From Spongiibacter tropicus DSM 19543 (GTDB lineage Bacteria > Pseudomonadota > Gammaproteobacteria > Pseudomonadales > Spongiibacteraceae): a DNA stretch of 64,000 bases. The stretch covers positions 126,501 through 190,500 of the forward strand of contig NZ_ATUS01000006.1 of the NCBI RefSeq assembly GCF_000420325.1, read 5' to 3'. Under the pieces are notes generated by a model, which was given only the letters and a program-made list of their open reading frames with translations, had not been told where the DNA came from and did not search any database. Shown here piece by piece: positions 653-22,894 of the stretch (position 1 is the stretch's first letter; each line of letters begins with the position of its first letter). Position numbers and translations under genes: made by a program.

Positions 653-678
653 AATCCCCAACGAGAAGGAGATTGGAC

Positions 679-1769: not shown

Positions 1770-1773
1770 AGCC

Positions 1774-1814
1774 GGACTCCAAACAGCTCCGCTACTGAAA
1801 GCGGGGGGACGTCG
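1774..1814. repeat. Right terminal inverted repeat of the IS
   Basis: It starts with GGACTCCAAACAG and ends with GGGGGGACGTCG, the complement of the left end. The CAGC target repeat follows immediately. Confidence 0.85.
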
Positions 1815-3373: not shown

Positions 3374-3542
3374 GATGACTCCTCGGAAGACCCGATTTCC
3401 AGGAGCCTGTTGGGAGCCAAGCGGGTGGAAGCCGGGTCAAGTTTCAGAAAGCACCGGCATATGATGAACTCGCCTAAGTTATTGATAAACCTGCTGTATC
3501 TGGCTGTGGCGTAGTCCAGCGAAGTTCGGTGCTGGAGTCATG

Positions 3543-3588
3543 GTGAAATAAAAAAGAACTGACAAAAGCCATAACACTGACAACGGGA
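3543..3588 (+). other. Apparent out-of-frame signal-peptide start of the TonB receptor (A-tract indel)
   Basis: GTG at 3543 (also ATG at 3540) is preceded by GGAG at 3534-3537 and is followed by AAA TAA, a stop. With one A fewer in the AAATAAAAAAG tract the frame would read M-N-K-K-E-L-T-K-A-I-T-L-T-T-G-M and join the receptor frame, giving a normal Sec signal peptide that ends before QDGTG. As written, the receptor has only the internal ATG at 3589, inside the hydrophobic core. This is either a real 1-base frameshift, a phase-variable homopolymer, or an assembly error. Confidence 0.6.
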
Positions 3589-5994: not shown

Positions 5995-6030
5995 TTCACC
6001 ACGGGGACTCCCCTCTTCGAGGTGATTGAT

Positions 6031-6056
6031 GCGGCTCGGTCGAGCCGCTTTTTTCT
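6031..6056 (+). terminator. Rho-independent terminator after the TonB receptor
   Basis: A 7-bp perfect stem, GCGGCTC with GAGCCGC, and a 4-base loop are followed by a run of six T's. It sits between the receptor stop and the thiolase start, so the two are probably separately transcribed or only partly coupled. Confidence 0.85.
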
Positions 6057-6077
6057 TTACAGACGACAGGAGGCACT

Positions 6078-7250: not shown

Positions 7251-7254
7251 ACTA

Positions 7255-7274
7255 GCGGGGCGGCTGCGCCCCGC
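7255..7274. terminator. Hairpin between convergent genes
   Basis: GCGGGGC and GCCCCGC form a 7-bp GC-rich stem with a 6-base loop in the 48-bp gap between the converging thiolase and lipoprotein genes. There is no T-run, so it is at best a weak intrinsic or Rho-assisted terminator. Confidence 0.4.
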
Positions 7275-7298
7275 AGGGATAAAACCGGCTTCGCCGTG

Positions 7299-8597
7299 TT
7301 ATTCAGGCAGTGATGCCTTGGCAATCCTTGCCGTGCGCACGCGCTGCGGGTGGTCGCCAACCGGAATGCGCGCCACTTCGGTGTCGGTCGCATAGGAGAA
7401 GACCGACAAGGTATCGTCGCCGGCAACCGATACATAGCAGAATTTACCGTCCTCGCTGGTGGTTGCCCAGTAGGTGCGCGCGCCCAGATCGTGGATGGAA
7501 TAGGTGAGCGTGTTGAGGTCCACCATCGCGGCATAGTTCGACATTGTGCCTGCAATACAGAGTGTGTCGCCCGCGCCGTTAATGGCGATGCCGTGGTGAG
7601 CGGAGTCCAGGATGTAGTCGATTTTTGGCAGGTCTCTGGCTTCTTCGCTCAGGGGCAGATTTACGACACGCACGACCTCATTCTTTTCAAGGTCGTATTC
7701 GATGAAGCCGTGAAAGAACGACACCTGAAAATACAGGGTTTTTTCATCGGGGCTTAGCGCCATCGGGCGAACCGCAGAACTCATATTGGGGTAGCCCGCG
7801 TCCTCAAGCACCTTCCCCATATCCAGACGTTTGATAATTTCCAGGGTCTCGGCATCGACGATCTGGAAATAGCGTTCACCCTTGGTGGTATCCAGAATGG
7901 GGTTGTCGAAAGGGGTGTAGATCAGGCCAATGCTGGCGTGAAAAATCTTTGAGCCATCGATGGAGTAATTGTTTTCGTGGGGCGAGTCGCCGGACTCGAA
8001 TTCGCCGACAATTTCGCCGGTAGCGGTGTCGAGAAGGTGAACCACGTTGCCGGTCGAGGCTGACACCGCAAGGCGCTCGCCGTCGGGCGAAATGGCCATG
8101 TGATCAGACCGCTGTCCGGCCACTTTGGTACGCCACACAATGTCGCCGCTGGCGATATCAATGGCAACCACGTCCGCAAGGCTCGGGCGCGAGACAAACA
8201 GGGTTTTTCCGTCGTTAGAGGCAAACATATCATCGACGAGCTGGTCGTTGCCCTCGCCAATCAACTGCTGGATCGCCAGGTAATAGGCGAAACGTATGGG
8301 GTTGGTAAGAATCTCCAGCTTGCGTTCTTCCAGATCGGGTACCACATTGATGCGGGCCAGCCGCGTATAGCCGGGCACGGAAAGAATATCCGCCGTGCCA
8401 TCCCAGTTATTGCCCACCAGCAGCACTTCCTGCGTATTGGCGTCGGCGCGTTGATCGGGCTCAGCGCTTGAGTCTGAGGAGGAGCTGCCTCCGCCGCCAC
8501 AGCCACTGAGTAACAGGGCCGCCACAATGGATGCCGCGACAGGGCGTAAACGGCGGAGCTGTGTTGTTAATAGCGCGATATATAAAGTTCGTAACAT
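7299..8597 (-). CDS. YVTN-type beta-propeller lipoprotein
   Basis: The 432-residue protein has a long hydrophobic N-terminus ending in the lipobox LLLSGC, followed by a flexible Gly/Ser linker, so it is predicted to be lipid-anchored in the periplasm or outer membrane. The body shows repeated WD/YVTN-like blades: DDMFASNDGKTLFVSRP, HMAISPDGERLAVSAST, RPMALSPDEKTLYFQ and TTSEDGKFCYVSVAGDD. Such propellers are binding or scaffold proteins, and some are quinoprotein-like, but no catalytic motif is visible. It is transcribed divergently from the sulfatase, with 449 bp between them. Confidence 0.75.
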   Translation of the reverse strand: MLRTLYIALLTTQLRRLRPVAASIVAALLLSGCGGGGSSSSDSSAEPDQRADANTQEVLLVGNNWDGTADILSVPGYTRLARINVVPDLEERKLEILTNPIRFAYYLAIQQLIGEGNDQLVDDMFASNDGKTLFVSRPSLADVVAIDIASGDIVWRTKVAGQRSDHMAISPDGERLAVSASTGNVVHLLDTATGEIVGEFESGDSPHENNYSIDGSKIFHASIGLIYTPFDNPILDTTKGERYFQIVDAETLEIIKRLDMGKVLEDAGYPNMSSAVRPMALSPDEKTLYFQVSFFHGFIEYDLEKNEVVRVVNLPLSEEARDLPKIDYILDSAHHGIAINGAGDTLCIAGTMSNYAAMVDLNTLTYSIHDLGARTYWATTSEDGKFCYVSVAGDDTLSVFSYATDTEVARIPVGDHPQRVRTARIAKASLPE

Positions 8598-8939: not shown

Positions 8940-8969
8940 TTGTTTTGTGTGATGGGGATGAAGTATGTT
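8940..8969 (+). promoter_or_regulatory. Putative sigma-70 promoter of the sulfatase
   Basis: TTGTTT (8940-8945) and TATGTT (8964-8969) are separated by 18 bases. The same -35, spacing and near-identical -10 occur upstream of the receptor operon at 11383-11412, and both are followed by the same operator. Confidence 0.6.
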
Positions 8970-8971
8970 TT

Positions 8972-8985
8972 TGTAAACGATTACA
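8972..8985. promoter_or_regulatory. LacI-family operator
   Basis: TGTAAACGATTACA has TGTAA/TTACA arms around a central CG, the form bound by LacI-family regulators. An identical site with identical flank (the match runs 21 bases, to 8992) lies at 11412. Placement just after the -10 suits repression. The regulator encoded at 20946 is the obvious candidate. Confidence 0.8.
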
Positions 8986-9046
8986 TAATAATGTCAAGCC
9001 TGAGACCGGAAAGTCCTCCTGTTTTGGGCGTGGGGCCTCAGGATTT

Positions 9047-10723
9047 ATGCGCAAGTTCTCCATTTTTTCGATGGCAATGCTGTTTTTGCTCTTCGCAGTT
9101 AACGCTCAGGCACAGGCGCGTCCGAATATTCTGTTGTTGGTGGCCGAGGACCTTGGCCCGCGCCTGAACAGCTTCGGTGATTCGCTGGCGCAGACCCCCA
9201 ATCTTGATGCACTGGCCAGTAGTGGTGTGCGCTTTGATCAGGTGTTTGCGACCGCCGGTGTTTGTGCGCCCAGTCGGGCTGCACTGATTACCGGGGTTCA
9301 TCAAAACAGTTTTGGAGCAGGGCATATGCGGGCTTCTGACGGGCTTGGTGGCGACTACCTCGCGGTACCCCCTCATGACCTGAAGGCCTTTCCGGAATTG
9401 TTGAGAGCCGCGGGTTACTACACCTATGTGAATGACAAGCTGGACTACCAGTTTTCGGGAACACAGCCGGGCTCGGGGCCGTTTACGATCTGGGATCAGG
9501 AATCGAGCCTCTTCTCGCCGGTGAGCTGGCGAGATCGTCCCGCGCAGCGGCCATTTTTCGGTATGTACAATTTCATGGAAACCCATGAATCCGCTCTGTT
9601 CCCGCGTTGCTGCTGGCCTCGCAGTGGCCTTCACGCCCTGATGGCGGCCATGCAGATATACCGGCATTGGGGTGAGCCATCACCCGTGAGCGAAGACAGG
9701 GTAAGTGTGCCGCCTTACTACCCTGATACGCCTGCGGTGCGCCGCGACATTGCCCGTCAGTACAACAATATTGCGACGATGGACCGGCGTGTTGGCGAGA
9801 TTATGACTGCCTTGCAGCGAGAGGCGCTGCTGGATTCGACGATTGTTATCTGGCTGTCTGATCACGGCGATGGTCTGCCCAGAGCCAAGCGCGAACTGTT
9901 CGACTCGGGGCTGCATGTGCCGATGATTATCTACTGGCCTGAGGCGTTCCGCCCCGGCGGGTTATCGCCTGGTCAGGTGGACTCACGCTTGATCAGCTTC
10001 GTGGATCTGGCGCCTACGATTTTAACAATGGCCGGTGTTGCTCCCCCGGCCTTTATGCACGGGCAGGATTTTCTGGATCGGGGGCATCCCCCGCGGCGCT
10101 ATATCTATGCCGCGAAAGACCGGATGGATGAGGTCGAGGATCGCCAGCGGGCGGTGCGTGATCATCGCTACAAGTACATCCGCAATTACCAGTCTGGCCG
10201 CCCTGGCGCCCAGCCGCTGGCGTTCAGGGATTATCTGGGCAGTATGCAGTCACTCTGGGCGGCAAAGCGGAAGGGGGAGTTGAATACGGAGCAGGCACAA
10301 TGGTTTGCACCGCGCCCTCCCGAGGAGCTCTACGATACTCAGCTCGATCCCCATGAGGTTCGCAACATCGCATCGTTGCCCGCCTATCGCCCGATTTTGC
10401 TGCGTATGCGGCAGGCGCTGGATCACTGGCAGCGCGAGGTGCCAGATATGGGCAGCCTGAACGAGTCCGAAATGGCCGAGCGTTTCTGGCCGGGCGGTCA
10501 GGCACCGATAACGGCGAAGCCTGAGCTGGAATACACGGCCGCGAAAAGTGAGGTCCGTATAGTCGCTGGTACGCAGGGAGCGTCGGTCGGGTATCGCGCC
10601 AATGACGGGCGCTGGCTGCTCTATCGTGACCCGGTACCCGTTAAAGCGGGCGACCGGGTAGCCTCAAAATCCGTGCGCTATGGCTGGCGCGAAAGCCCGG
10701 TGGTCGAGCTGGTGGCGCCGTAA
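9047..10723 (+). CDS. Secreted type I sulfatase
   Basis: The 558-residue protein has a Sec signal peptide (MRKFSIFSMAMLFLLFAVNA, cleavage near AQA). It then shows the alkaline-phosphatase-superfamily fold of sulfatases: metal-site NILLLVAEDLG, the formylglycine motif CAPSR at about residue 73 in CAPSRAALITG, and the second metal site WLSDHGDGLPRAKREL. It should hydrolyse a sulfate ester in the periplasm or outside the cell, after activation of Cys73 by a formylglycine-generating enzyme that is not in this window. ATG 9047 is chosen because the signal peptide starts there. The operator at 8972 places it in the same regulon as the 11486-21956 operon. The natural substrate is unknown. Confidence 0.92.
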   Translation: MRKFSIFSMAMLFLLFAVNAQAQARPNILLLVAEDLGPRLNSFGDSLAQTPNLDALASSGVRFDQVFATAGVCAPSRAALITGVHQNSFGAGHMRASDGLGGDYLAVPPHDLKAFPELLRAAGYYTYVNDKLDYQFSGTQPGSGPFTIWDQESSLFSPVSWRDRPAQRPFFGMYNFMETHESALFPRCCWPRSGLHALMAAMQIYRHWGEPSPVSEDRVSVPPYYPDTPAVRRDIARQYNNIATMDRRVGEIMTALQREALLDSTIVIWLSDHGDGLPRAKRELFDSGLHVPMIIYWPEAFRPGGLSPGQVDSRLISFVDLAPTILTMAGVAPPAFMHGQDFLDRGHPPRRYIYAAKDRMDEVEDRQRAVRDHRYKYIRNYQSGRPGAQPLAFRDYLGSMQSLWAAKRKGELNTEQAQWFAPRPPEELYDTQLDPHEVRNIASLPAYRPILLRMRQALDHWQREVPDMGSLNESEMAERFWPGGQAPITAKPELEYTAAKSEVRIVAGTQGASVGYRANDGRWLLYRDPVPVKAGDRVASKSVRYGWRESPVVELVAP

Positions 10724-10731
10724 GTGAGAGC

Positions 10732-11277
10732 TTATTGATCCGCTGCCGGGAGGAGGGTCAGCAGGCTGTCCAGCTCTTGCTGGCTGACAATGCCGTCTTT
10801 GAAGAAACGCAGCGTGCCTTTGGGGTCCACGAGGAAAATCGCGCTGCCGCCGGGTTTGAGTTCCCAGGCCTGACGACCGTTGTCCATGTCGCCAATCAGC
10901 GGGCTGTCGGGGTATTTCCGCTTATTGTTCTCCAGTTCGGCGAGTGCGAATCCCGTCGCGCCGAATGGCACGTCGCGAACATTGATGATGTTGAAAATAT
11001 TAACGGCTACGCCTTGAGCGCGTTTTTCGGATACGGCGTCGACAACGTGGCGATTCACTTTGCTGGCTTTGGGGCGCGCCGCCATGTACTGCAGCAGGGC
11101 CCAGTCCCCATTCAATGAGCTGGTAGCCCAGGGGCGGTAGTCTATCGCTTTGCCGTTAAGGTGGAGTTCGCCCTTGTCGCGAATCTCCAGCGACGGCATC
11201 GGCTCGCCAACCGTTGGGCTTGCGGCATAACTGCTTAAGCTGAGCAGGAATAGTGTGGCCATAACGATAAAACGCAT
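10732..11277 (-). CDS. ytfJ: YtfJ-family periplasmic protein
   Basis: The 181-residue protein has a cleavable signal peptide (MRFIVMATLFLLSLSSYAAS) and a thioredoxin-like fold of the YtfJ family. It begins with the family pattern GEPMPSLEIRDKGELHLNG, has WALLQYMAARPKASKVN in the middle, and ends with AIFLVDPKGTLRFFKDGIVS. The CxxC of a thioredoxin is absent, so it is not an obvious oxidoreductase, and the function of YtfJ is not established. It is convergent with the sulfatase and divergent from the receptor operon; its 5' region is shared with the operator at 11412. Confidence 0.8.
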   Translation of the reverse strand: MRFIVMATLFLLSLSSYAASPTVGEPMPSLEIRDKGELHLNGKAIDYRPWATSSLNGDWALLQYMAARPKASKVNRHVVDAVSEKRAQGVAVNIFNIINVRDVPFGATGFALAELENNKRKYPDSPLIGDMDNGRQAWELKPGGSAIFLVDPKGTLRFFKDGIVSQQELDSLLTLLPAADQ

Positions 11278-11382
11278 TGCTTTCTCCTTGTTTGGGTGTC
11301 GTACTATTCAGCGATTCGCCCATCGGTGGGGAGTCGCACATTGCCAGATGTGTGTCGAGGGCTCCAATCGTCTATTCGGGGC

Positions 11383-11412
11383 TTGTTTTTGCCCCCCATC
11401 TCTGCTTATGAT
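11383..11412 (+). promoter_or_regulatory. Putative sigma-70 promoter of the receptor/oxidoreductase operon
   Basis: TTGTTT (11383-11388), 18 bases, then TATGAT (11407-11412). Its architecture is the same as that of the sulfatase promoter at 8940. The last T of the -10 is also the first base of the operator. Confidence 0.65.
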
Positions 11413-11425
11413 GTAAACGATTACA
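11412..11425. promoter_or_regulatory. LacI-family operator, twin of 8972-8985
   Basis: It is the same TGTAAACGATTACA as at 8972, and the identity continues through ATAATAAT-type flank to 11432. It abuts the -10 element, a repression position. It could also affect the divergent ytfJ gene that starts at 11277. Confidence 0.8.
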
Positions 11426-11485
11426 TAATAATAGTTGAAGTCGCCAGGCGGAAGCGCTGGGCGACGGGTATGGAGACCTTTACCC

Positions 11486-13822
11486 ATGCAAAAATACTCA
11501 CTGATTGTGGCCGTTGTGCTGCAGCTTTTGTTTTTTATTTCTGCCCATGCTGAGGATTATCCCGACGTGACGGATTCGGGACTGCGCATTGAAGAGGTGG
11601 TCGTCACTGTCTCCAAACGCAGCGAGTCGCTTCAGGATGTGCTGGGGTCAGTGTCAGCGCTTTCGGGCGAAATGATTGCTGAGCAGAATATTCAGGATTT
11701 CCGCAGCATGGCTGAACTCATGCCCGGCATGGTGGTGCAGGGGGAAGAGGCCGGCAGCGAGCAAGTGGCTATTCGCGGTATCAGTCGCACACGCGACGGC
11801 CCGTCGCCAGTGGCCTTCCATGTGAACGATATGTTTTTGGATATGCGCGGCGAGCCGTATTACGACCTTCAGGCCGTTGAGGTGGTGCGCGGTCCGTCGG
11901 GCACCGCCTATGGGCGCAATGCCACCGCCGGCGCGATCAACGCCAAATGGCGAAAGCCGGAGTTGGAGTGGGGTGTCGGCGGCAGTTATCGGCAAACGGA
12001 TCTCAACTCCAAGGAGCTGCGCGCCTATGTGAACATGCCGCTGCTCGGTGAGGATAACGACCGTTTGCTGGCGCGGGTGGCGGCAGTAGCTCGCGAGAAA
12101 GACGGTACCTATAACAATCTGCTGACTCCCGATGACGCCGATCCGGGCAACCTGCAGGATCGTTTTCTGCGCATTTACCTGACCAGTCAGCTGACGGATT
12201 CCCTCGCGCTTGGTCTGCGGGCCATCAAGTATCAGTATCGTACCAACGGCACGAATACCGTTTTTTCGCCCTCGAGGGCCACCAGGAACAGCGGCGAGCT
12301 GGAGCAGTTAGGGGCCGAGTCGCTGCCCGACGATCTGACGATCGTCCGTTCCACGGCGCATGAGCGTTTTGGCAATTTTGAAGAAGACTTTACACGGGTG
12401 TCGGGCGACATCACCTGGTCGCTCGAAGACCTGCCCTTGCTGGGCAGTATGGACGTGGTGTTTGTCGGGGGCGAGATGCGTCGCGACTGGCGCTCGGTGT
12501 TCGACCTTGACGGCACCGAGGCAGCTATCACCGATGGCCTTTCCGAGCACCCCAGCGATGTTCGCCGTTCCGCAGAGCTGCGCTTTGTGTCTACCAACGC
12601 CAGCGGCTTCGACTGGTTGCTGGGCTTTTTTGCCTATCGCAAAGTGGATGACTGGAATCAGGCCATCGATGTTCGCAGTCACCTGTCGGCCTCAACGGTT
12701 GGTCTTCCCGATTGGCTGGACTTCGTCTCCATGCCGATTACCGCCGAAGTGCGGATTGATGGCATCCATATTGTTGATGACAGCAAGGCGGCCTTCTTCA
12801 ATATGAATATGGATCTGGGCGAGCTGCTTGGGCTGCCCAACATTGAGGTGTCGGCAGGTATTCGTCATAACCGGGATGAATTCACCAACGAAACCGACAG
12901 CTCGGTGAACGCACTGGTAACGCCCATCGGCACCTTCCCGCTGGTGCAGGAAGAGAACATCAACCAGTACGCGGCATTCGAAGAAACCACCGGCGAGCTG
13001 GGTGTGCGCTGGTTCTACAGTGAAAGCGGTATGGCCTATGTGAAGGCCGCGCGCGGCTACAAGCCAGGACTGGCGCAGCGCATTGAAACCCTCGATGAAG
13101 GGGTGCTGCAGAATCCGGTCGATCCCGAGTTTCTGGATTCTATCGAGCTGGGCTGGAAGGCGAGCTTTTTGCAACAGAGTCTGCAGACCAATATGGCCTT
13201 GTACATGTACGACTACCAGAACCTGCAGGTCAGCCAGATTACCCCCGGCGGTGTCATTACCGAGAATGCGGCAGAAGCGACAATTCAAGGGCTGGAAATG
13301 GATGTGCGCTGGATGCCGACGGCAAGCTTCAGCCTGATGGGCGGTTTTGCCTGGACCGACGCCAGCTATGACCGTTATTGCGGCAATGATCCGGTGCGTG
13401 AGCAGGGTGATCCGGCACCGGGCTGTGATGCCGAAAACCCCTTCGACTTCTCCGGCGCGACGCTGCCTGCATCACCGGAGTTTGCGGTATCGCTGCTGGC
13501 CAGTTACCTGATTGATCTGAACGACTGGGGACGATTGACGGCCTCGCTGCAAACCAGTTGGACGGATGAAATTAACCGCCGTGGTCTGGGCAATGACGAG
13601 GATGTTGTCGAAGCCTATACCAACAGTTCGGTCCGACTGGGCTGGGAGAATGTCAGCGGGCAGGTGAAGATCACCGCGTTTGTGGAGAACCTCGAAGACA
13701 ACAGCGATCTGTTCTTCTCGGCGGCGCCGCTGTTCCTGGGTAGCGACCGGCCCAATCAGCTGACCCTGGTCGGTAATCTGCCGCCGCGAACCTCCGGTGT
13801 GGAACTGGAGCTGAGATTTTAA
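11486..13822 (+). CDS. TonB-dependent receptor of the LacI-controlled carbohydrate operon
   Basis: This is a 778-residue outer-membrane importer. The start at ATG 11486 gives a clean signal peptide (MQKYSLIVAVVLQLLFFISA, cleaved near HAE). The plug begins IEEVVVTVSKRSESLQDVLG, with VRGPSGTAYGRNATAGAIN later in the plug; a 22-strand barrel follows and ends in TSGVELELRF. It is first in an operon of sugar-oxidising enzymes and follows a LacI-type operator, so it probably imports the glycoside or oligosaccharide, perhaps after desulfation or with the sulfate still attached. Its stop overlaps the next start by one base (TAATG). Confidence 0.92.
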   Translation: MQKYSLIVAVVLQLLFFISAHAEDYPDVTDSGLRIEEVVVTVSKRSESLQDVLGSVSALSGEMIAEQNIQDFRSMAELMPGMVVQGEEAGSEQVAIRGISRTRDGPSPVAFHVNDMFLDMRGEPYYDLQAVEVVRGPSGTAYGRNATAGAINAKWRKPELEWGVGGSYRQTDLNSKELRAYVNMPLLGEDNDRLLARVAAVAREKDGTYNNLLTPDDADPGNLQDRFLRIYLTSQLTDSLALGLRAIKYQYRTNGTNTVFSPSRATRNSGELEQLGAESLPDDLTIVRSTAHERFGNFEEDFTRVSGDITWSLEDLPLLGSMDVVFVGGEMRRDWRSVFDLDGTEAAITDGLSEHPSDVRRSAELRFVSTNASGFDWLLGFFAYRKVDDWNQAIDVRSHLSASTVGLPDWLDFVSMPITAEVRIDGIHIVDDSKAAFFNMNMDLGELLGLPNIEVSAGIRHNRDEFTNETDSSVNALVTPIGTFPLVQEENINQYAAFEETTGELGVRWFYSESGMAYVKAARGYKPGLAQRIETLDEGVLQNPVDPEFLDSIELGWKASFLQQSLQTNMALYMYDYQNLQVSQITPGGVITENAAEATIQGLEMDVRWMPTASFSLMGGFAWTDASYDRYCGNDPVREQGDPAPGCDAENPFDFSGATLPASPEFAVSLLASYLIDLNDWGRLTASLQTSWTDEINRRGLGNDEDVVEAYTNSSVRLGWENVSGQVKITAFVENLEDNSDLFFSAAPLFLGSDRPNQLTLVGNLPPRTSGVELELRF

Positions 13823-14118
13823 TGAACAAGGAGCCCATTGCGATGGCGACCTCTTCTATTCGTCCCGCGCGCGTGTTGCTGGGGGTGGCGCTGGCGCTCT
13901 ACCTGTATGCGCTGCTCGGGGCGACGGCAACACTGTTTTATGAGCTTTACCACCTGACGGGATTCGGCGCGATTTATTACGGCTACAGTGCGTTTAAGGC
14001 GGCGGCCTACTATTTCGGAAGTTGGGAATACCAGTGGCTTGCCTGCCTGCTTGTGGGAGCCTTGGTGGCGCTGCCCTGGTGGCGTTATTTGCGCAGTGCA
14101 ATAGGAGGACGGGGATGA
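13822..14118 (+). CDS. Small two-helix membrane protein, possible anchor of the sugar dehydrogenase
   Basis: The 98-residue protein is of no recognised family. It shows two or three hydrophobic segments: VLLGVALALYLYALLGATAT, a Tyr/Ala-rich middle part (YYGYSAFKAAAYYF) and WLACLLVGALVALPWW. There is no heme motif and there are no conserved charged pairs. It overlaps the receptor by 1 base and the next gene by 4 bases, so it is translationally coupled between the receptor and the dehydrogenase small subunit. In glucoside dehydrogenase clusters this position often holds a cytochrome or anchor subunit. A membrane anchor or quinone-contact role is a guess from position only. Confidence 0.7.
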   Translation: MNKEPIAMATSSIRPARVLLGVALALYLYALLGATATLFYELYHLTGFGAIYYGYSAFKAAAYYFGSWEYQWLACLLVGALVALPWWRYLRSAIGGRG

Positions 14119-14732
14119 ACCGGCGAGAGTTTCTTGAGTGCGCCGCACTGCTGATTGCAGGCGCGAGTGCCAGTCAGTTGGGGGTATCGCTGACCCATGA
14201 GCAGCGCCAGCATCTGGCGGCGGCACCGAACTATATTGACCACAAGGTCGAGTACCTCACGGCCGCGCAGAAAAGCACGCTGGCCATGTTGACCGAAACG
14301 ATTATTCCGCGCACCGAAACGCCGGGGGCGATGGATGCCGGTGTGCCGCGCTTTGTCGAGCTGATGGTCTTTGAGTGGCTGAACGAGGACGAGCGCCGAC
14401 TCTTTCTGGAAGGCTTCAATGCGCTGATGACCACGGTGCAGGAGCAGTATCAGCAGCCGTTCGATGAGCTGCCCGAATCGACCCGTGTCGACATTCTCGA
14501 CGATCTGGAGCGCGAGGCCTCTGATTCCAGCTGGTACGCCTTTGGCGAAATCCCGGTGTATGTCAGCGATGCGCCATTTATCTGCCAGCTTAAAGAACTG
14601 ACGATTTGGGGCTTCTTTACCTCCGAGGTGGGCGGCACGCAGGTGCTGCGCTACGAGGCCATGCCGATGAAATTTGATGGACACCGCAAGCTGGACGATG
14701 ACGACAGCAGCTGGATGTCGGTAATGATTTGA
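14115..14732 (+). CDS. Gluconate 2-dehydrogenase subunit 3-family protein (small subunit/chaperone of GMC dehydrogenase)
   Basis: The 205-residue protein begins MNRREFLECAALLIAGASAS, with a twin-arginine-like N-terminus (NRREFL) typical of this family, in which the small subunit carries the Tat signal for the folded FAD-containing large subunit. The body has the family core LTAAQKSTLAMLTETIIPRTETPGAMDAG in its first third (conserved T..IIPRT...GA...GV) and ends with WGFFTSEVGGTQVL. AGGAGG at 14103-14108 supports ATG 14115. It lies directly before the GMC oxidoreductase, the usual order for membrane-bound sugar 3-dehydrogenases. Confidence 0.88.
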   Translation: MNRREFLECAALLIAGASASQLGVSLTHEQRQHLAAAPNYIDHKVEYLTAAQKSTLAMLTETIIPRTETPGAMDAGVPRFVELMVFEWLNEDERRLFLEGFNALMTTVQEQYQQPFDELPESTRVDILDDLEREASDSSWYAFGEIPVYVSDAPFICQLKELTIWGFFTSEVGGTQVLRYEAMPMKFDGHRKLDDDDSSWMSVMI

Positions 14733-14735
14733 GGA

Positions 14736-16439
14736 ATGGCGATGATTGACGTTAAGCAGTATGAGTTTGATGCCATTGTGGTCGGCTCGGGAATCACTGG
14801 CGGCTGGGCCGCGAAAGAGCTGACGGAAAAAGGTTTGAAGGTGCTGGTGCTGGAACGTGGCCGCGATGTGCGTCACGGTGTGGACTATCTCGGCGAGCAC
14901 GCCCCCGACTGGAAATTGCCGTTTCAGGGCAAACCGCCACGGGAACTCTATAAAGAACAGTACCCGGTACAGAGTACCTCCTATGCCTTTAACGAGGCGA
15001 CACGCCACTTTTTCGTTAACGACCAGCAGAATCCCTACCAGACTGATAAGCCCTTCCACTGGGTTCGTGCCGATGTTGTCGGCGGGCGCTCGCTGCTGTG
15101 GGGGCGGCAAACTTACCGCTGGAGTCAGCAGGATTTTGAGGCGAACAAGCGCGATGGTCACGGCACCCCGTGGCCGATTGGCTACGAGGATGTCGCGCCG
15201 TGGTACAGCTATGTAGAAAACTTTATCGGTGTCAGTGGGGAAAAGCTCGGTCTGGACGAGCTGCCTGACAGTGAATTCCTGCCACCGATGGGGATGCACA
15301 AAATTGAGGAAACCATTCGCGGTCGCTTAAAGCGCAAAGCCCCTGACGCCAAAATGACCATCGGGCGGGCGGCGATTCTCACGGAAGACCATAATGGCCG
15401 GGCGTCGTGTCACTACTGCGGTCCCTGCCACCGAGGCTGCTCTACCGGCAGCTACTTCAGCTCGCAGAGCTCGACACTGCCTGCGGCAAGGGCGACCGGC
15501 AATATGACGCTGCGCCCCGACTCGGTTGTGGAAAAGCTGATCGTTGATCGTGACAGCGGAAAAATTTCCGAAGTGCGCGTCATCGACAGTAAAACGGGTG
15601 AGCGACTGCGCTTTCGCTCGCGACTGGTCTTTCTCTGCGCGTCCACGGTGGGCAGTACCCAGTTACTGCTCAACTCTGCCTCCGATGAGGCGCCCAATGG
15701 CCTGGCAAACAGCAGCGGGGCACTGGGCCACTATCTGATGGACCACGTGCACGGCAATGCGTCGATGGGGATATTCCTCGATGACATGGACAGCTATTGG
15801 TACGGCAACCGCCCCAATGGCTGCTACATCCCGCGCTTCCGCAATCTACCGGGTCAGGAGGAAGGTACTGACTTCCTGCGGGGCTATGGTATGCAAGCCA
15901 ATATCGTGCGCCTGAACTGGAAAACCAGTTACCACCGCAAAGGCTTTGGTGCCGACCTCAAAAACGACTTGAGAAAACCCGGTCCCTGGATCTGGGTGCT
16001 CACGCCGTTTGGCGAAGCGCTGCCGGACAAGCGCAACCGCCTCTACTTACATCCCAGCAAAAAAGACCGTTTTGGCATTCCCCAAGTGGTCTTCGACGCC
16101 CAGTGGCGAGACAACGAATACAAGCTCTGGGCGGACGCGGTTGCACAGAGTGAGCGTCTGATGCGGGCGGCGGGTTCGGTTTGGATCATGCCGCAGGAAG
16201 AGGTGGAAAGTCCCATGGGCGCGGGTATTCACGAAATGGGAACAGCGCGCATGGGTGCGGACCCTTCCGAGTCGGTGCTCAACGGCCATAACCAGGCCCA
16301 CGATGTGCCCAATCTGTTTGTGACAGACGGCGCCTGCATGACCTCCGCATCCTGCGTCAATCCATCGCTCACCTACATGGCGCTGACCGCGCGCGCCTGC
16401 GACTACGCGGTGAAGCAGATGCAGGCAGGGAATTTGTGA
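14736..16439 (+). CDS. FAD-dependent GMC-family sugar dehydrogenase (candidate glucoside 3-dehydrogenase large subunit)
   Basis: The 567-residue flavoprotein has an FAD-binding GSGITGG at residues 17-23, then VLVLERGRDV, and the family C-terminus with HEMGTARMG, NLFVTDGACM and CVNPSLTYMALTARACDYA. A cysteine cluster C225-x2-C-x2-C-x3-C235 matches the place where FAD-glucose and glucoside-3-dehydrogenases bind an iron-sulfur centre. With the subunit-3 homologue just upstream (3-bp gap), it probably oxidises C3 of a glucosyl unit in the periplasm and passes electrons to the respiratory chain. Substrate preference cannot be read from the sequence. ATG 14742 is a possible alternative start. Confidence 0.88.
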   Translation: MAMIDVKQYEFDAIVVGSGITGGWAAKELTEKGLKVLVLERGRDVRHGVDYLGEHAPDWKLPFQGKPPRELYKEQYPVQSTSYAFNEATRHFFVNDQQNPYQTDKPFHWVRADVVGGRSLLWGRQTYRWSQQDFEANKRDGHGTPWPIGYEDVAPWYSYVENFIGVSGEKLGLDELPDSEFLPPMGMHKIEETIRGRLKRKAPDAKMTIGRAAILTEDHNGRASCHYCGPCHRGCSTGSYFSSQSSTLPAARATGNMTLRPDSVVEKLIVDRDSGKISEVRVIDSKTGERLRFRSRLVFLCASTVGSTQLLLNSASDEAPNGLANSSGALGHYLMDHVHGNASMGIFLDDMDSYWYGNRPNGCYIPRFRNLPGQEEGTDFLRGYGMQANIVRLNWKTSYHRKGFGADLKNDLRKPGPWIWVLTPFGEALPDKRNRLYLHPSKKDRFGIPQVVFDAQWRDNEYKLWADAVAQSERLMRAAGSVWIMPQEEVESPMGAGIHEMGTARMGADPSESVLNGHNQAHDVPNLFVTDGACMTSASCVNPSLTYMALTARACDYAVKQMQAGNL

Positions 16440-16476
16440 GCGTTTCCACGCGATTTTCACGAGGTGTATTTCAACA

Positions 16477-17376
16477 ATGAAACTCTGGATAAAGCGCAGC
16501 CTTTGGACGCTGCTGGCCGTCGTACTCCTGCTTGGCGGAACGGCGTACTACCAGCTCCGGTCTATGGGAGTCTTTCCGCGCTACGACTATGACACCGTGC
16601 CGCCGACCTTGCCGACCTTCAGCAAGCCGGCGGTGCTGGTATTCACCAAAACCAACGGCTTTATTCATAAAGATGCGATTCCCGTGGCCAAACGCGTATT
16701 GGGCAAACTGATCGCCGAGCAGGGCTGGGAAGCGTACCTCACGGATAATGCGGCCGTGCATTCTCCAGAGTTGCTTGAACAGTTCGATTTCATTATCTGG
16801 AACAATGTGTCGGGTGATGTGCTGACCGAGCCGCAACGCGCGGCAATGAAACAGTGGCTGGAAAGTGGTGGCGGCTGGCTGGGGATTCATGCCTCGGGCG
16901 GCGACCACAGCTACCTGTGGTCCTGGTATGGCGACACCCTGCTGGGTGCACAGTTTATTGGTCACACCATGCACCCGCAGTTTCAGGATGCCGATGTCCT
17001 TGTGGCCGATGACACTCTGGCCGTTACCGATCATCTGCCCGCGCGATGGACGGTGGAAAAGGAAGAGTGGTACGCCTTTGCCAATAACCCGCGTGATAAA
17101 GGTTATGAAATTCTGTTGACCCTCGACGAGGACTCTTACCGCATCAAGGGCGAAAACTTCTTCGGTAACGACCACATGGAGGGCGAGCACCCCATTGCCT
17201 GGCGGCACAAGCTGGCTGAAGGGCGGGTGTTCTACAGTGCCATTGGTCATCAGCCCTATACCTATGAATTGCCGATGTATCAGGCCTTTCTCGTCAAGGC
17301 CATGCACTGGGTGCGCGGCGCTGCTGAACCGCAGGCCGACGCCGAGGCGGTCGCGAGTGATGAGGGAGGCGAATGA
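16477..17376 (+). CDS. ThuA-like domain protein, membrane-anchored
   Basis: The 299-residue protein has one N-terminal membrane segment (SLWTLLAVVLLLGGTAYY) and a ThuA-like, glutamine-amidotransferase-like fold: VLVFTKTNGFIHKDAIP, FDFIIWNNVSGDVLT, GGGWLGIHASGGDHSY, GAQFIGHTMHP, and AWRHKLAEGRVFYSAIGHQPYTY near the end. ThuA is linked to trehalose and 3-keto-sugar metabolism, but its reaction is not settled. The anchor suggests that it works at the outer face of the inner membrane, where 3-keto-glycosides would be formed. It overlaps the next gene by 4 bases. Confidence 0.85.
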   Translation: MKLWIKRSLWTLLAVVLLLGGTAYYQLRSMGVFPRYDYDTVPPTLPTFSKPAVLVFTKTNGFIHKDAIPVAKRVLGKLIAEQGWEAYLTDNAAVHSPELLEQFDFIIWNNVSGDVLTEPQRAAMKQWLESGGGWLGIHASGGDHSYLWSWYGDTLLGAQFIGHTMHPQFQDADVLVADDTLAVTDHLPARWTVEKEEWYAFANNPRDKGYEILLTLDEDSYRIKGENFFGNDHMEGEHPIAWRHKLAEGRVFYSAIGHQPYTYELPMYQAFLVKAMHWVRGAAEPQADAEAVASDEGGE

Positions 17377-18557
17377 TGCGCCGCAAGATTCGTATGGGGA
17401 TGGTCGGGGGTGGCCCCGGCTCGATGATCGGTCCTATTCATCGTCTGGCGGCACGTCTTGATGGTGAGGTTGAGCTGGTTTGCGGGGCCTTTTCCCGAGA
17501 CCTCGAGCGGAGTCGGGAAACTGCCGAGTCCCTGCATTTGCCCGCCGAGCGGGTCTACCCCGACTATCGGGCGATGATGCAAGGCGAAGCCGCGCTTCCC
17601 GACGGAGAACGCATGGATTTTGTCGCCGTTGTGACCCCGAACGACAGTCACTTTCCGATTGCCAAGGCGGCGCTTGAGCATGGCTTTCATGTGCTGAGCG
17701 ACAAACCTGCGACCAAGTCGCTGGACGAAGTCGAGCAGCTTGCCGCAAGCCTTCAGCAAAGCGGTTTGCTCTACGGCCTGACCCACACCTATGCGGGTTA
17801 TCCGATGATCAAGCAGGCGCGCAGTATGATCGCCGCGGGCGCGCTCGGGCGTGTGCGAAAAGTGCTGGTGGAGTATCCCCAGGGCTGGCTGGCGGAGGCG
17901 GGCATCGAGGCCCATAGCCGACAAGCGGCATGGCGTCTCGACCCCAATCAGGCGGGTGTCAGTAGCTGTATTGGCGACATCGGTTCGCATGCCGCTCAGC
18001 TCAGTGAATATGTGGCCGGTACGGCGATCAGCGAAATCTGCGCCGACTTGAATGCCGTGGTAGACGGTCGGCAAATGGATGACGATGCCACGGTCCTGCT
18101 GCGGTTTGAAAATGGCGCGCGCGGGGTGTTGATTGCCAGCCAGATCTGCGCCGGTGAAGAGAATAATCTGAAGCTCAGAATCTATGGGGAAAAAGGCGGC
18201 TTGGAGTGGCAGCAACACGAGCCCAATACCTTGTGGTTGAAATGGATTGATCGTCCCACCGAGATGCTGCGTGCGGGCGGTCCGGGCCTGACGGAGCTTG
18301 CGCTCGCCAATTGCCGCACGCCCGGCGGACACCCCGAGGGCTATCTCGAAGCCTTCGCCAACCACTACCGTAATTTTGCGGGCCAGATTCGCGCGCGGCT
18401 GGAAGGCCGAGCCGCAACGGCGATCGAGAGCGATGTCCCTGACATCGTCGATGCTCTGCGCGGTATGCGTTTTATTGAAGCGACGGTCAGCGCCGCAAGC
18501 ACTGATCAGAAATGGCACCGCTTACCCGCCTTGATGGCGTTGGAGAATCAGCTATGA
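17373..18557 (+). CDS. Gfo/Idh/MocA-family NAD(P)-dependent sugar oxidoreductase
   Basis: The 394-residue protein has an N-terminal Rossmann domain (RMGMVGGGPGSMIGPIHR; GGGPGS dinucleotide loop), the family signature near residues 106-112 (LSDKPAT, equivalent to EKP), and the catalytic region GDIGSHAAQL (Dx3H). The C-terminal domain is a typical sheet (DDDATVLLRFENGARGV). In the ThuB branch such enzymes reduce 3-keto-sugars back to the parent sugar. Here it is coupled by 4-base overlaps to ThuA upstream and the TIM-barrel gene downstream, which supports a role in handling a 3-keto intermediate. Confidence 0.85.
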   Translation: MMRRKIRMGMVGGGPGSMIGPIHRLAARLDGEVELVCGAFSRDLERSRETAESLHLPAERVYPDYRAMMQGEAALPDGERMDFVAVVTPNDSHFPIAKAALEHGFHVLSDKPATKSLDEVEQLAASLQQSGLLYGLTHTYAGYPMIKQARSMIAAGALGRVRKVLVEYPQGWLAEAGIEAHSRQAAWRLDPNQAGVSSCIGDIGSHAAQLSEYVAGTAISEICADLNAVVDGRQMDDDATVLLRFENGARGVLIASQICAGEENNLKLRIYGEKGGLEWQQHEPNTLWLKWIDRPTEMLRAGGPGLTELALANCRTPGGHPEGYLEAFANHYRNFAGQIRARLEGRAATAIESDVPDIVDALRGMRFIEATVSAASTDQKWHRLPALMALENQL

Positions 18558-19600
18558 AAGGTCCGGCTATATTTCTTGCTCAGTTTGTCGGTGCTGAGCC
18601 GCCCTTTAATACGCTGGAGGGCTTGTGCCGATGGGCCGCTGAACTCGGCTACAAGGGGATTCAACTGCCGAGCTTTGAGCGCAATCTTATCGATCTGTCT
18701 CTGGCGGCGGAGAGTCAGGATTACTGTGACGAACTGAAAGGCCAGGTCAACGCGGCGGGGCTGGAGATATCCGAGTTGTCCACGCATTTGCAGGGGCAGT
18801 TGGTTGCCGTGCATCCCGCTTACGATGAACTGATGGACGGCTTTGCACCGCAGGCATTGCGCGGCAAGCCCGCCGAGCGTCAGGCATGGGCGGTCGACCA
18901 GCTTATGCTGGCCGCCAAGGCGAGTCAGCGCTTGGGGTTAACGGCGCACGCGACCTTCTCCGGCGCCCTGTTGTGGCAAACCTTCTACCCGTGGCCGCAG
19001 CGTCCGGCAGGGCTGGTTGACAGCGGGTTTGCGGAACTCGGTAAACGCTGGCGGCCTATTCTGGACGCCTTTGATGAGGCAGGGGTGGATTGCTGTTTTG
19101 AAATTCATCCCGGTGAAGATCTGCATGACGGCGCCAGTTTTGAACGTTTTCTGGAGGCCGTGGATCAGCATCCGCGCGCGAATATCCTCTTCGATCCCAG
19201 CCACTTGCTGCTGCAGCAGCTCGACTATCTGGCCTTTATCGACTTGTACCACGAGCGCATCAAAGCTTTTCACGTGAAGGACGCCGAGTTTCGCCCGAAT
19301 GGTCGAAGCGGGGTCTACGGCGGCTATGACGCCTGGGTCGATCGTCCCGGTCGTTTCCGCTCTCTGGGCGACGGACAGGTCGACTTCAAAGGGATTTTTA
19401 GCAAGCTGGCTCAATACGGCTACGAAGGCTGGGCGGTACTGGAGTGGGAGTGCTGCCTGAAGCATCCCGAGGATGGGGCGCGGGAGGGCGCGCCATTTAT
19501 TCGCGATCACATGATACGACTGACGGACCGCGCCTTTGATGATTTTGCCGGGGTTGGCAGTGACGAGGTTTTTAATCGCCGAGTCCTGGGCTTGAGCTAG
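18554..19600 (+). CDS. Sugar phosphate isomerase/epimerase-family TIM-barrel protein
   Basis: This is a 348-residue xylose-isomerase-like TIM barrel. The metal-binding residues of the family can be matched in order: E in CFEIHPGEDL, D and H in ILFDPSHLLL, H in AFHVKDAEF, and E in AVLEWECCL. ATG 18554 is used because it overlaps the preceding stop as ATGA and gives the family N-terminus. Members with GMC and Gfo/Idh/MocA partners include isomerases, epimerases and enzymes that cleave or hydrate 3-keto-glycosides. The last would be the bond-breaking step in this operon, but the exact reaction cannot be assigned. Confidence 0.82.
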   Translation: MKGPAIFLAQFVGAEPPFNTLEGLCRWAAELGYKGIQLPSFERNLIDLSLAAESQDYCDELKGQVNAAGLEISELSTHLQGQLVAVHPAYDELMDGFAPQALRGKPAERQAWAVDQLMLAAKASQRLGLTAHATFSGALLWQTFYPWPQRPAGLVDSGFAELGKRWRPILDAFDEAGVDCCFEIHPGEDLHDGASFERFLEAVDQHPRANILFDPSHLLLQQLDYLAFIDLYHERIKAFHVKDAEFRPNGRSGVYGGYDAWVDRPGRFRSLGDGQVDFKGIFSKLAQYGYEGWAVLEWECCLKHPEDGAREGAPFIRDHMIRLTDRAFDDFAGVGSDEVFNRRVLGLS

Positions 19601-19643
19601 CGGGCTGGCGACGTCTACATACTAATAACGGGGAAATCACCAC

Positions 19644-20927
19644 ATGAGCGATGCACTGGATCGCAAACGTCTATTTTTGGTCGGGAATCTGTCGATCTTT
19701 ATGATTGGTCTGGGGTTCGCTGTGCGCGCCAGCATCGCCTCCGACATTCAAAACGATTTATTCAATCAGTTGGATCTGGCGCGTTCGGCGGGTCTGGTCG
19801 GCGAGGTACTGGGGGCAACGTTTATCGGCTTCGCTCTGACTCTGTTATTTGGCAGTGCACTGGTTGATCGTATTGGTATGCGCGCCATGCTGCTGTTCTC
19901 GGCGCTGGGTTATATCATCGGCAGCGCGCTGGTGCTGGCGGTGTCCTTTATGCCGGTCTCCATGCTCAGCTACTGGCTGATTTTTGCCGGCTTCCTGTTA
20001 ACCGGTTTGGGGTGGGGCGCGGTGGAGGCTGCCAGCAACCCGATGGTCACGGCGGTCTATCCCGAGGAAAAGACCCATCGACTGAATATTCTGCACGCCT
20101 GGTGGCCAGCCGGTATTGTGGTGGGCGGCATTGCCGGACTGGCGTTTGCCGAGCTGGGTCTGCCCTGGCAGGTCAATTTGCTGATGCTGGTGTTGCCGGC
20201 CTGCTGGCTTGCCTACCTCACCCTGTCTACGCAGTTTCCCGTTTCCGAACGCGTGCAGTCAGGCGTGTCCTACGGCGATATGTTCAAGGAGCTGTTCCGG
20301 GCTCCCGGCTATTTCATCTGGTTCTTCTGTATGATGATCACTGCGGCTGCGGAGCTGGCTCCGGGGCAGTGGGTTGATCTGTCCTTGACCAATATTGTGG
20401 GGATGCCGGGCATTCTGGTACTGATTTATGTCAGTATGCTGATGTTTGTCATGCGCCATTTTGCCGGTGCGATTGCCAAGCATATCTCTTCCGTTGGCTT
20501 GCTGTTCTTCGGTTGTATTTTCGCGGCGCTGGGGCTGTACGGCCTGAGCTTGTCGACATCGCCGTTGACGGCCTTCCTGTCTGCGACGGTATGGGGGATG
20601 GGAGTGTGCTATTTTTGGCCGACCATGCTGTCGGTGGTCAGCGAGCGCTACCCGAAAGGCGGGGCGCTGTTTTTAGGGCTGACCGGCTTTGCCGCAGGCC
20701 TGTCGATACAGTTTGTACTGCCGCAGATGGGTGCGATTTTTGACAGCGCTAAAATAGAGGCCGCAGGCGGTGTCGCGCGACTGTCGACCCTCGGGGGTGA
20801 GGAACTGGACGCCGTACTGCGTTATGCCTCGGTGGAGTCTTTTCAAGCCGTAGCGATACTTCCCCTGTTGCTGCTGCCGGTGTTTGGTCTGGTGTGGTGG
20901 CGCGATCGTCGCCAGCATAAAGAATGA
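19644..20927 (+). CDS. MFS sugar transporter
   Basis: The 427-residue integral membrane protein has about 12 hydrophobic segments and the MFS loop-2 motif variant ALVDRIGMRAMLL near residue 70. It resembles the sugar-proton symporters of the FucP/GlcP-like group, with GWGAVEAASNPMVTAVYPEE after helix 4. It is in the same operon as the oxidative sugar enzymes and probably moves the released sugar or 3-keto-sugar into the cytoplasm, where the Gfo/Idh/MocA enzyme and glucokinase would act. A 43-bp gap separates it from the TIM-barrel gene. Confidence 0.85.
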   Translation: MSDALDRKRLFLVGNLSIFMIGLGFAVRASIASDIQNDLFNQLDLARSAGLVGEVLGATFIGFALTLLFGSALVDRIGMRAMLLFSALGYIIGSALVLAVSFMPVSMLSYWLIFAGFLLTGLGWGAVEAASNPMVTAVYPEEKTHRLNILHAWWPAGIVVGGIAGLAFAELGLPWQVNLLMLVLPACWLAYLTLSTQFPVSERVQSGVSYGDMFKELFRAPGYFIWFFCMMITAAAELAPGQWVDLSLTNIVGMPGILVLIYVSMLMFVMRHFAGAIAKHISSVGLLFFGCIFAALGLYGLSLSTSPLTAFLSATVWGMGVCYFWPTMLSVVSERYPKGGALFLGLTGFAAGLSIQFVLPQMGAIFDSAKIEAAGGVARLSTLGGEELDAVLRYASVESFQAVAILPLLLLPVFGLVWWRDRRQHKE

Positions 20928-20945
20928 TTGCAGAGTAGTGATTGC

Positions 20946-21956
20946 ATGGTAACGATAAAGGATGTTGCGAAGATGGCGGGGGTGTCGATTGCCACCGTCT
21001 CTCGCACATTGGCCGAGCCGGACAAGGTGTCGGAAAAGACCCGTAAAAAGGTTATGGAAGCGGTGGAAACCAGCGGCTACGTTGCCAATACTCTGGCCCG
21101 GAATTTTCGCCGTCGCCGCAGCAATATGGTCGTTGTGCTGGTGCCGGATATTGCGAACCCCTTCTTTTCCAATATTATTCAAGGTATCGAGCGGGTCGCC
21201 AGCCGCCATCAATACCGTATTCTGCTGGGGGATACGCAGGGAGAGCAGGAGCGGGAGCAGGCCTATGCCGATCTGGTCTCCCAGCGGCAGGCCGATGGCG
21301 TGATTTGCCTGGGACGCAATATCCCGTTCCGCTATCGAAAAGGGCGCAAGACACTCGACCCCGACTGGCCGCCATTCGCTATGGCCTGTGAGTACCACGG
21401 TGAAATTCCGGTGCCCACGGTGTGCATTGATAACGTTGCGGCGGCCAGAGATGCCGTCAATCATCTTCTTGAGCTCGGGCATCAACGCATTGCCTATGTG
21501 AACGGCCCGAGTGAATCACCGCTTTGTGAAGATCGCCTGCAAGGCTATGAGCAAGCTTTGAGAGAAGCAGGACTGACGGTGGAGCCCGCATTGATCAAGC
21601 AGGGAGATTTTACCCTTGCTTCAGGCTATGACTGCACCGCGGCCTTACTGGCGTCGGCGAATCCGCCGACAGCGCTCTTTTGCGCGAACGATGAGATGGC
21701 GATTGGCGCGATGCAGGCCTGCCACGCAGCGGGCTTAAGCCTGCCCGGTGACATGTCGGTAGTGGGCTTTGATGATATCGGCTTCGCAGCCTATACCCAC
21801 CCGCGATTGACCACCGTACACCAGCCGCGTAACCGCATTGGTGAGCAGGTCATGACGATGATGCTGGCGATGTTGGCGGGCAATACGCCTGCGGATTCGC
21901 GCATCGTACTGCCGCACGAGCTGGTTGTTCGCGAGTCGAGCGCGGCACGGGGCTGA
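20946..21956 (+). CDS. LacI-family transcriptional regulator
   Basis: The 336-residue protein has an N-terminal helix-turn-helix (TIKDVAKMAGVSIATVSRTL) and hinge (VANTLARNFRRRRSNMVVVLVPDI), then a periplasmic-binding-protein-like sensor domain (NPFFSNIIQGIERV, CIDNVAAARDAVNHLLELGH, FCANDEMAIGAMQA, VVGFDDIGFAAY). The ATG at 20946 starts exactly at the conserved MVTIKDVA. It is the last gene of the operon, so it is under its own control, and the two TGTAAACGATTACA sites are its likely operators. The inducer is probably a free or phosphorylated sugar. Confidence 0.93.
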   Translation: MVTIKDVAKMAGVSIATVSRTLAEPDKVSEKTRKKVMEAVETSGYVANTLARNFRRRRSNMVVVLVPDIANPFFSNIIQGIERVASRHQYRILLGDTQGEQEREQAYADLVSQRQADGVICLGRNIPFRYRKGRKTLDPDWPPFAMACEYHGEIPVPTVCIDNVAAARDAVNHLLELGHQRIAYVNGPSESPLCEDRLQGYEQALREAGLTVEPALIKQGDFTLASGYDCTAALLASANPPTALFCANDEMAIGAMQACHAAGLSLPGDMSVVGFDDIGFAAYTHPRLTTVHQPRNRIGEQVMTMMLAMLAGNTPADSRIVLPHELVVRESSAARG

Positions 21957-21958
21957 CG

Positions 21959-22894
21959 TCAGGGCAGTGTGTACTGCGAGGCGCCCAGCAGGCCGGGGTT
22001 GTCGTGCAGGACCAGCCGGACGGCGATCGGCTGGAGGTAATGCGCCATCGGCGCTTTGTTCTCGAAACGTTGACGGAAATCGCTGTTGGCCAGATGTTGC
22101 CGCAGTTTCGGCAGAATTCCCCCGGCCAGAAAAATCCCGCCCCGCGCGCCGCTACCCAAGGCTTGATCCCCCGCGGCGCTACCCAGCAAGCCCATAAACA
22201 TCGCAATGGCCTGACAGGCCGTTGCGTCTCCCGTTTCCGCCAATGCACTGACGTCGCCGCCATTATTCGCGTGCAGAGGCTGATGGCTGATATGTGCGAT
22301 CGCCTGATACAGCCGGTAGAGTCCAATGCCCGACAGGAAGCTCTCTCTGGAAAGCGGGATCCCCTGCTCTCGCCAGTACGCGAAAACCTGTTGCTCGATC
22401 TCATTTTCCGCTTGAAGGCTCGTATGTCCTCCTTCGGTAGCGATGGCTTTGAAGTGTCCGTCGCAGGGGATCAATAGCGCGGCGCCCAGGCCGGTGCCCG
22501 GACCGAGTACGGCCATCGGTGCAGAGAGATCAATACTGCCGCCCAGCGCCATCAGGTCGGCGTCTTGCAGGGCGGGAAGCGACAGCGCGATGGCTTCAAA
22601 GTCGTTGATGAAGGCGAGCTGTTGGATGCCGAACTGCCGTTGCAGAGCAAGGCGGTCGCACTTCCAATCCACATTCGTCATCTGAAAGCGGGTTTCGCTG
22701 ACCGGGCCGGCCACGGCAAGGCAGGCTTCGTCGGGACTGGCTTTCACTTCATCAAGGTAGTGCTGTACGGCTTCCTCCAGCGTCGGAAAATCTGCGGCGC
22801 GTAAGCTGCATAGCTGTTCGGGGCCCCCACCGGCCTCGCTTAATGCGAGGCGACAGTTGGTGCCGCCAAGGTCACCAATCAGTCGTAATGCCAT
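21959..22894 (-). CDS. glk: Glucokinase (Glk family)
   Basis: The 311-residue protein phosphorylates glucose to glucose 6-phosphate with ATP in the cytoplasm. The ATP-binding LIGDLGGTNCRLAL is at the N-terminus; the sugar site FINDFEAIAL is near residue 100; GPGTGLGAALL and ATEGGHTSL follow, as in proteobacterial Glk. Its length is normal (E. coli Glk is 321). It converges on the LacI gene with a 2-bp gap. Its place at the end of the locus suggests that the pathway yields glucose. Confidence 0.92.
   Translation of the reverse strand: MALRLIGDLGGTNCRLALSEAGGGPEQLCSLRAADFPTLEEAVQHYLDEVKASPDEACLAVAGPVSETRFQMTNVDWKCDRLALQRQFGIQQLAFINDFEAIALSLPALQDADLMALGGSIDLSAPMAVLGPGTGLGAALLIPCDGHFKAIATEGGHTSLQAENEIEQQVFAYWREQGIPLSRESFLSGIGLYRLYQAIAHISHQPLHANNGGDVSALAETGDATACQAIAMFMGLLGSAAGDQALGSGARGGIFLAGGILPKLRQHLANSDFRQRFENKAPMAHYLQPIAVRLVLHDNPGLLGASQYTLP

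Follow-up and report, generated by a model that had tools for sequence, protein, structure and literature searches.

A predicted LacI regulon in Spongiibacter tropicus that may couple a sulfatase to 3-keto glucoside breakdown

What does a secreted sulfatase have in common with a neighbouring operon that appears to be built for the oxidation of a sugar, and how would a glycoside be cut by such a set of genes? This question is raised by positions 8940 to 22894 of a stretch of 64,000 nucleotides from Spongiibacter tropicus DSM 19543, referred to here as the window (G000:C6:126501-190500), which belongs to a genome of 3,947,342 bases in seven contigs. The answer that we consider probable, although by no means secure, is that sulfatase and operon form a LacI-controlled regulon for sulfated beta-glucosides. 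Fundamental to this is an operator found before both transcription units and a hydratase that can be named with some precision.

A predicted operator shared by two promoters

The predicted operator TGTAAACGATTACA is present in exactly two copies in the genome, at positions 8972 and 11412 of the window, where base composition would give about 0.008 copies by chance and a reversed-pattern control gives none. Both copies sit inside an identity of 21 bp, and the identical 21 bp precede the TonB receptor gene in a congener (G008). Judged by eye, each operator is closely preceded by promoter boxes, TTGTTT and, after a spacing of 18 bp, TATGTT or TATGAT. A degenerate operator pattern with up to two mismatches has four matches in the window against 0.93 expected, and in its exact form the pattern recurs at one other place in the genome, within a distant open reading frame (ORF) for 483 residues. 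Membership of the sulfatase in the LacI regulon, with a predicted operator common to both promoters, thus appears to hold up well. Co-regulation of the sulfatase was one of the claims on which an earlier, sequence-only reading of this DNA depended, and it finds support both in the confinement of the exact operator to these two promoters and in an independent case of linkage in another locus.

That case comes from a comparison of the best 80 of at least 593 hydratase loci, three of which carry a sulfatase homologue: L003 and L016 (each with about 51% identity) and L007 (31%, and 9 kb away). In L016, from a metagenome-assembled genome, 10 bp separate the likely sulfatase ATG (19146) from the stop codon of a preceding GMC gene, whose product is 64% identical to that of the window; this locus also has a homologue of the 98-residue protein (58%) and two of the small subunit (56% and 54%). 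Adjoining this operon, at 571-8554, are genes for adenosine 5'-phosphosulfate kinase, ATP sulfurylase, an FGGY sugar kinase and a 444-residue TIM barrel, so that L016 may also deal with sulfate and a further sugar.

The behaviour of this kind of regulator can also be followed in G019, a member of the same family, whose orthologous operon includes a 2-keto-3-deoxy-6-phosphogluconate (KDPG) aldolase gene. There, another operator of this type, TGTAAACGTTTACA, precedes genes for glucose-6-phosphate dehydrogenase, a member of the glucosamine-6-phosphate isomerase/6-phosphogluconolactonase family, an Ilv/Edd dehydratase and glucokinase. Together with the aldolase, these operator-linked genes imply that the G019 regulon is directed towards glucose and the Entner-Doudoroff route. 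G019 also illustrates how this kind of regulator acquires satellite genes through an operator placed before them, as is proposed for the sulfatase. The features of the locus are as follows.

8972-8985, plus strand: LacI-type operator TGTAAACGATTACA, 61 bp upstream of the sulfatase ATG; one of two exact genome copies
9047-10723, plus strand: secreted Cys-type sulfatase (CAPSR motif; PF00884 and SGSH_C), nearest solved relatives S1_8A/B/C
10732-11277, minus strand: YtfJ-family protein, between the two promoters; family match
11412-11425, plus strand: second operator TGTAAACGATTACA, upstream of the TonB gene
11486-13822, plus strand: TonB-dependent receptor; family match
13822-14118, plus strand: 98-residue membrane-like protein, conserved ahead of the small subunit in G008, G018, G019 and L016
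14115-14732, plus strand: Gluconate_2-dh3-type small subunit with a twin-arginine start; family match
14736-16439, plus strand: GMC flavin dehydrogenase (GMC_oxred N and C), C-x5-C-x3-C; proposed glucoside 3-dehydrogenase
16477-17376, plus strand: ThuA-family protein, N-terminal helix at residues 2-29; proposed 3-keto-glycoside cleaving enzyme
17373-18557, plus strand: Gfo/Idh/MocA oxidoreductase; family match, proposed 3-keto-glucose reductase
18551-19600, plus strand: 2-hydroxy-3-keto-glucal hydratase (AP_endonuc_2 TIM barrel), 70.7% identity to PDB 8RO4
19644-20927, plus strand: MFS transporter (MFS_1); family match
20928-21956, plus strand: LacI-family regulator, nearest NCBIfam model CytR at 387 bits, below the cut-off of 436
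21959-22894, minus strand: glucokinase, convergent with the operon; the G019 regulon has a gene 55% identical to it

Every named gene is an intact ORF with the expected Pfam family match, so that the gene set described earlier, from sulfatase to glucokinase, is confirmed in content and order, as is the lack of a recognisable glycoside hydrolase, none being found among the 12 Pfam-scanned proteins of this stretch. The gaps between genes from TonB to LacI (11486-21956) range from -7 to +43 bp, which is consistent with one operon. The YtfJ gene, on the minus strand between sulfatase and receptor, makes the sulfatase a separate transcription unit and is itself probably a bystander. The hydratase gene probably starts at 18551, since the alignment to 8RO4 begins there. 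The ORF for the 98-residue protein, which the earlier reading had missed, overlaps both the TonB and the small-subunit genes and has no Pfam match. At the left end of the window, a gene resembling integrase-core (rve) transposases and one for a phage-type integrase (756-3373) are situated upstream of a further TonB receptor.

A proposed route from glycoside to glucose

What chemistry would these genes support? The TIM-barrel protein is 70.7% identical over 348 positions to the 2-hydroxy-3-keto-glucal hydratase 8RO4 (E 2e-175), a match that bears out the 3-keto pathway suggested from the sequence alone, and assignment as a 3-keto glucoside operon appears to hold up well. The best PDB matches of the GMC enzyme are flavin adenine dinucleotide (FAD) glucose and fructose dehydrogenases, and its cysteine cluster, already remarked upon, is a C-x5-C-x3-C at residue 225, which we take to be the iron-sulfur ligand set of those dehydrogenases. 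The small subunit begins MNRREFLE, with a twin arginine, and together the two proteins are proposed as a glucoside 3-dehydrogenase, for which the 98-residue protein might be an anchor or electron link. The Gfo/Idh protein, in the same operon by family and position, is put forward as a 3-keto-glucose reductase.

The route that we infer, with its compartments, substrate, sulfate position, electron acceptor, step order and the reactions of the GMC, ThuA and Gfo/Idh proteins, would run as follows. The TonB receptor would bring the glycoside into the periplasm, where the S1_8-like sulfatase would remove sulfate, most likely from O2 of the sugar, and the GMC/small-subunit pair, exported by the twin-arginine (Tat) system, would oxidise C3 of the glucosyl group. 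A membrane-anchored ThuA would then cleave the 3-keto-glycoside and the MFS transporter would import the keto-sugar. In the cytoplasm the hydratase would convert 2-hydroxy-3-keto-glucal to 3-keto-glucose, which Gfo/Idh would reduce to glucose prior to phosphorylation by glucokinase.

The least conventional step is the cleavage. ThuA may fill the slot that PF06439 proteins take in most comparable loci, and no PF06439 protein was found in the S. tropicus genome. In a survey of 85 loci, comprising the 80 hydratase loci and L105-L109 with the window itself uncounted, 42 have a GMC gene near a small subunit, and these divide into 33 with only a PF06439-like protein, four with only ThuA, none with both and five with neither. 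The corresponding Fisher p of 0.001 is not independent, because L105-L107, three of the four ThuA loci, were fetched as relatives of the window. Recounted within the 80 loci alone, the 38 with a GMC pair comprise 32 with a PF06439-like protein, one with ThuA, none with both and five with neither, and eight Chitinophaga loci that have no GMC pair carry both proteins. All these counts come with serious caveats: some contigs are short, a PF06439-like match anywhere on a locus was counted, and the classes derive from profiles grown off one seed each rather than from Pfam.

The structure model of ThuA (mean pLDDT, the model's confidence score, 81.0) has an N-terminal helix at residues 2-29, possibly a membrane anchor that would face the periplasm, where the Tat-exported pair would act. 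In fold it comes closest to ThuA-like and glutamine-amidotransferase-like proteins, a result that does not settle the reaction. The nucleophile of the amidotransferases is a cysteine; ThuA of the window contains none, and therefore lacks that nucleophile. Other cutters were sought. The search for known lyase classes covered PF06439 and PF01261, and the genome encodes one further PF01261 protein besides the hydratase; considered at L097 as a candidate eliminase, it gave no PDB match at E 0.1, in a PDB set whose inclusion of AtOGE, the Agrobacterium eliminase discussed below, is unverified. An extra TIM barrel of L016 (12400-13275) was rejected for this role, its best solved relatives being tagatose/ketose 3-epimerases. 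As to an unlinked hydrolase, the genome was searched solely for PF06439 and for the GH3 glycosidase of a relative (G020), and neither matched; the latter search had no positive control, so its empty answer shows nothing.

The sulfatase and the readings it allows

The sulfatase has an N-terminus that, by eye, resembles a signal peptide, and its CAPSR site is also present in the sulfatases of L003 and L016. Among 86 PDB sequences that match it, S1_8A, B and C come first, a placement that rests on best PDB match and not on a subfamily model. According to PMC12549532, these three are assigned as galactose-2-O-sulfohydrolases, with exo-xylose-2-sulfate and N-sulfoglucosamine activities among other S1_8 members, and by analogy the sulfate removed here would most likely be at O2 of a sugar. 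Elimination beside a C3 ketone deprotonates C2, and the hydratase acts on a substrate with a free 2-hydroxyl, so that prior 2-desulfation makes chemical sense; a 2-sulfate would be expected to hinder chemistry at C2 and C3. Glucosyl-2''-sulfates of this type, the thalassiolins of seagrass, are therefore candidate substrates: thalassiolin B is given as chrysoeriol 7-beta-D-glucopyranosyl-2''-sulphate in PMC3037906, and further glucoside- and xyloside-2''-sulfates from seagrass appear in PMC11821081. In a more specific form, the locus would be dedicated to 2-O-sulfated glucosides, thalassiolins among them: removal of the 2-sulfate in the periplasm would gate C2/C3 oxidation-elimination, ThuA would be a periplasmic 3-keto-glucoside lyase or hydrolase of a new class, and the 98-residue protein would couple the GMC enzyme to the respiratory chain; we hold this only tentatively.

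Recent foreign origin of the sulfatase gene is unsupported, its guanine plus cytosine (GC) content and third-position GC resembling those of its neighbours. For the sulfatase itself, a structure model based on three sequences was of poor quality, with a mean pLDDT of 47.8. The genome has four intact Cys-type (C-x-P-x-R) sulfatase genes (C5:49238-50317, C5:53829-55046, C1:817491-818723 and window 9047-10723). On C5, at L092 (1429-4220), the ORF directly downstream of a Cys-type sulfatase gene contains several CxxCH motifs and, judged by eye, encodes a multihaem cytochrome.

A number of observations weigh against a regulon for sulfated beta-glucosides, and besides the S1_8 placement they concern distribution and maturation. 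The congener G008 has the complete operon and its operator (identities of 83% for TonB, 83% for GMC and 87% for the hydratase) and no match to the window sulfatase, which is why the latter has to be regarded as accessory; G018 and G019, both of the family, carry the core operon without a window-type sulfatase. None of the 17 congeners searched matches the sulfatase at E 1e-60. It is rare more widely, being found in one of 369 genomes of the class at E 1e-100, namely its own, and in four of 57 relatives at E 1e-60, own genome included. In G023, of the same order, a distance of 2.3 kb, occupied in part by an AbgT-type transporter gene, separates the Gfo and hydratase genes from the sulfatase gene (L003, on contig C15), and no GMC or small-subunit gene is present in the 39 kb examined. 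L016 contains neither ThuA nor a PF06439-like protein. Finally, neither the formylglycine-generating enzyme (FGE; PF03781) nor the anaerobic maturase (TIGR03942) was found in the S. tropicus genome, whereas 37 of the 57 genomes searched match PF03781, matches that need not all be true FGEs; either the maturation route lies outside these two families, or a gap in the assembly conceals the gene, or the sulfatases have no activity.

Could the two units then share a signal rather than a substrate? An operon for 3-keto glucosides in general, with a regulator that in addition induces a scavenging sulfatase for other molecules, would account for the retention of the operon in G008, G018 and G019, and for the separate transcription of the sulfatase in its own genome. 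It fits poorly with L016, where the sulfatase gene lies 10 bp after the GMC gene, and with G020, also of the family, and we judge it rather unlikely. In G020 the genes for a receptor (53% identity to the operon TonB) and a sulfatase (54% identity) are transcribed divergently, and a GH3 glycosidase gene comes after that of the sulfatase. The region between receptor and sulfatase has no operator, even with two mismatches allowed, and no hydratase was found in this 70% complete genome. By analogy, this grouping of receptor, sulfatase and hydrolytic cutter is the best hint that the sulfated compound would be a glycoside.

If these enzymes were relaxed enough to take a galactoside or xyloside with a 2-sulfate, a glycone other than glucose would suit the substrates of the characterised S1_8 enzymes, which according to PMC12549532 are galactose-2-sulfate and, for others, xylose-2-sulfate or N-sulfoglucosamine, and a xyloside-2''-O-sulfate is known from seagrass (PMC11821081). 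Against this, glucokinase adjoins the operon, glucose-6-phosphate genes are under the operator in G019, and the enzyme to which the hydratase is 71% identical takes its name from the glucal, all of which makes another glycone improbable. Least probable is a sulfatase that is unmatured and inactive in this strain, with an operon serving unsulfated glucosides only, for although neither maturation enzyme was found, four intact Cys-type genes are kept, an exact operator precedes this one, and an assembly of seven contigs may hide a gap. A regulon for sulfated beta-glucosides remains the reading that we prefer.

Comparison with known systems

ThuA itself is known from the rhizobial thu operon for trehalose, where it stands beside a Gfo/Idh protein in 3-keto-sugar chemistry served by ATP-binding cassette (ABC) uptake; to our knowledge that operon has no GMC pair, no hydratase and no sulfatase. 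A close parallel is the glucoside operon of Agrobacterium tumefaciens (GlycDH, a GMC enzyme; a Tat protein; AtOGE; AtHYD; Gfo), which proceeds by oxidation, elimination, hydration and reduction (PMC10628242). It shares with the window the GMC dehydrogenase with its Tat protein, the hydratase and the Gfo oxidoreductase, but its eliminase is the TIM barrel AtOGE where the window has ThuA, and the window adds the TonB receptor, the 98-residue membrane protein and the co-regulated sulfatase. The levoglucosan pathway of Bacillus smithii (LgdA, LgdB1, LgdB2, LgdC) has the same four-step logic of 3-dehydrogenation, elimination, hydration and reduction to glucose, whereas its first enzyme and substrate differ and, unlike the window, its summary mentions no sulfatase (PMC7676230). 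In the lambda-carrageenan locus of Pseudoalteromonas distincta U2A, as in the window, an S1_8-type sulfatase readies a sulfated sugar for cleavage, but there glycoside hydrolases cleave (PMC12549532) in place of the 3-keto pathway proposed here.

The four-step pathway is thus already known, and it is the coupling to a sulfatase that looks new. No description of a sulfatase coupled to a glucoside 3-dehydrogenase or 3-keto chemistry was found in the literature searched, which was mostly non-subscription and so provides weak evidence. If the reading is true, desulfation and oxidative glycoside cleavage would form one regulated route with a chemical rationale for the sulfatase, and the sulfated flavone glucosides of seagrass would be indicated as a concrete substrate class. 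ThuA, whose relatives of known structure in the fold search carry no more specific name than 'ThuA-like', would likewise gain a function that can be put to the test.

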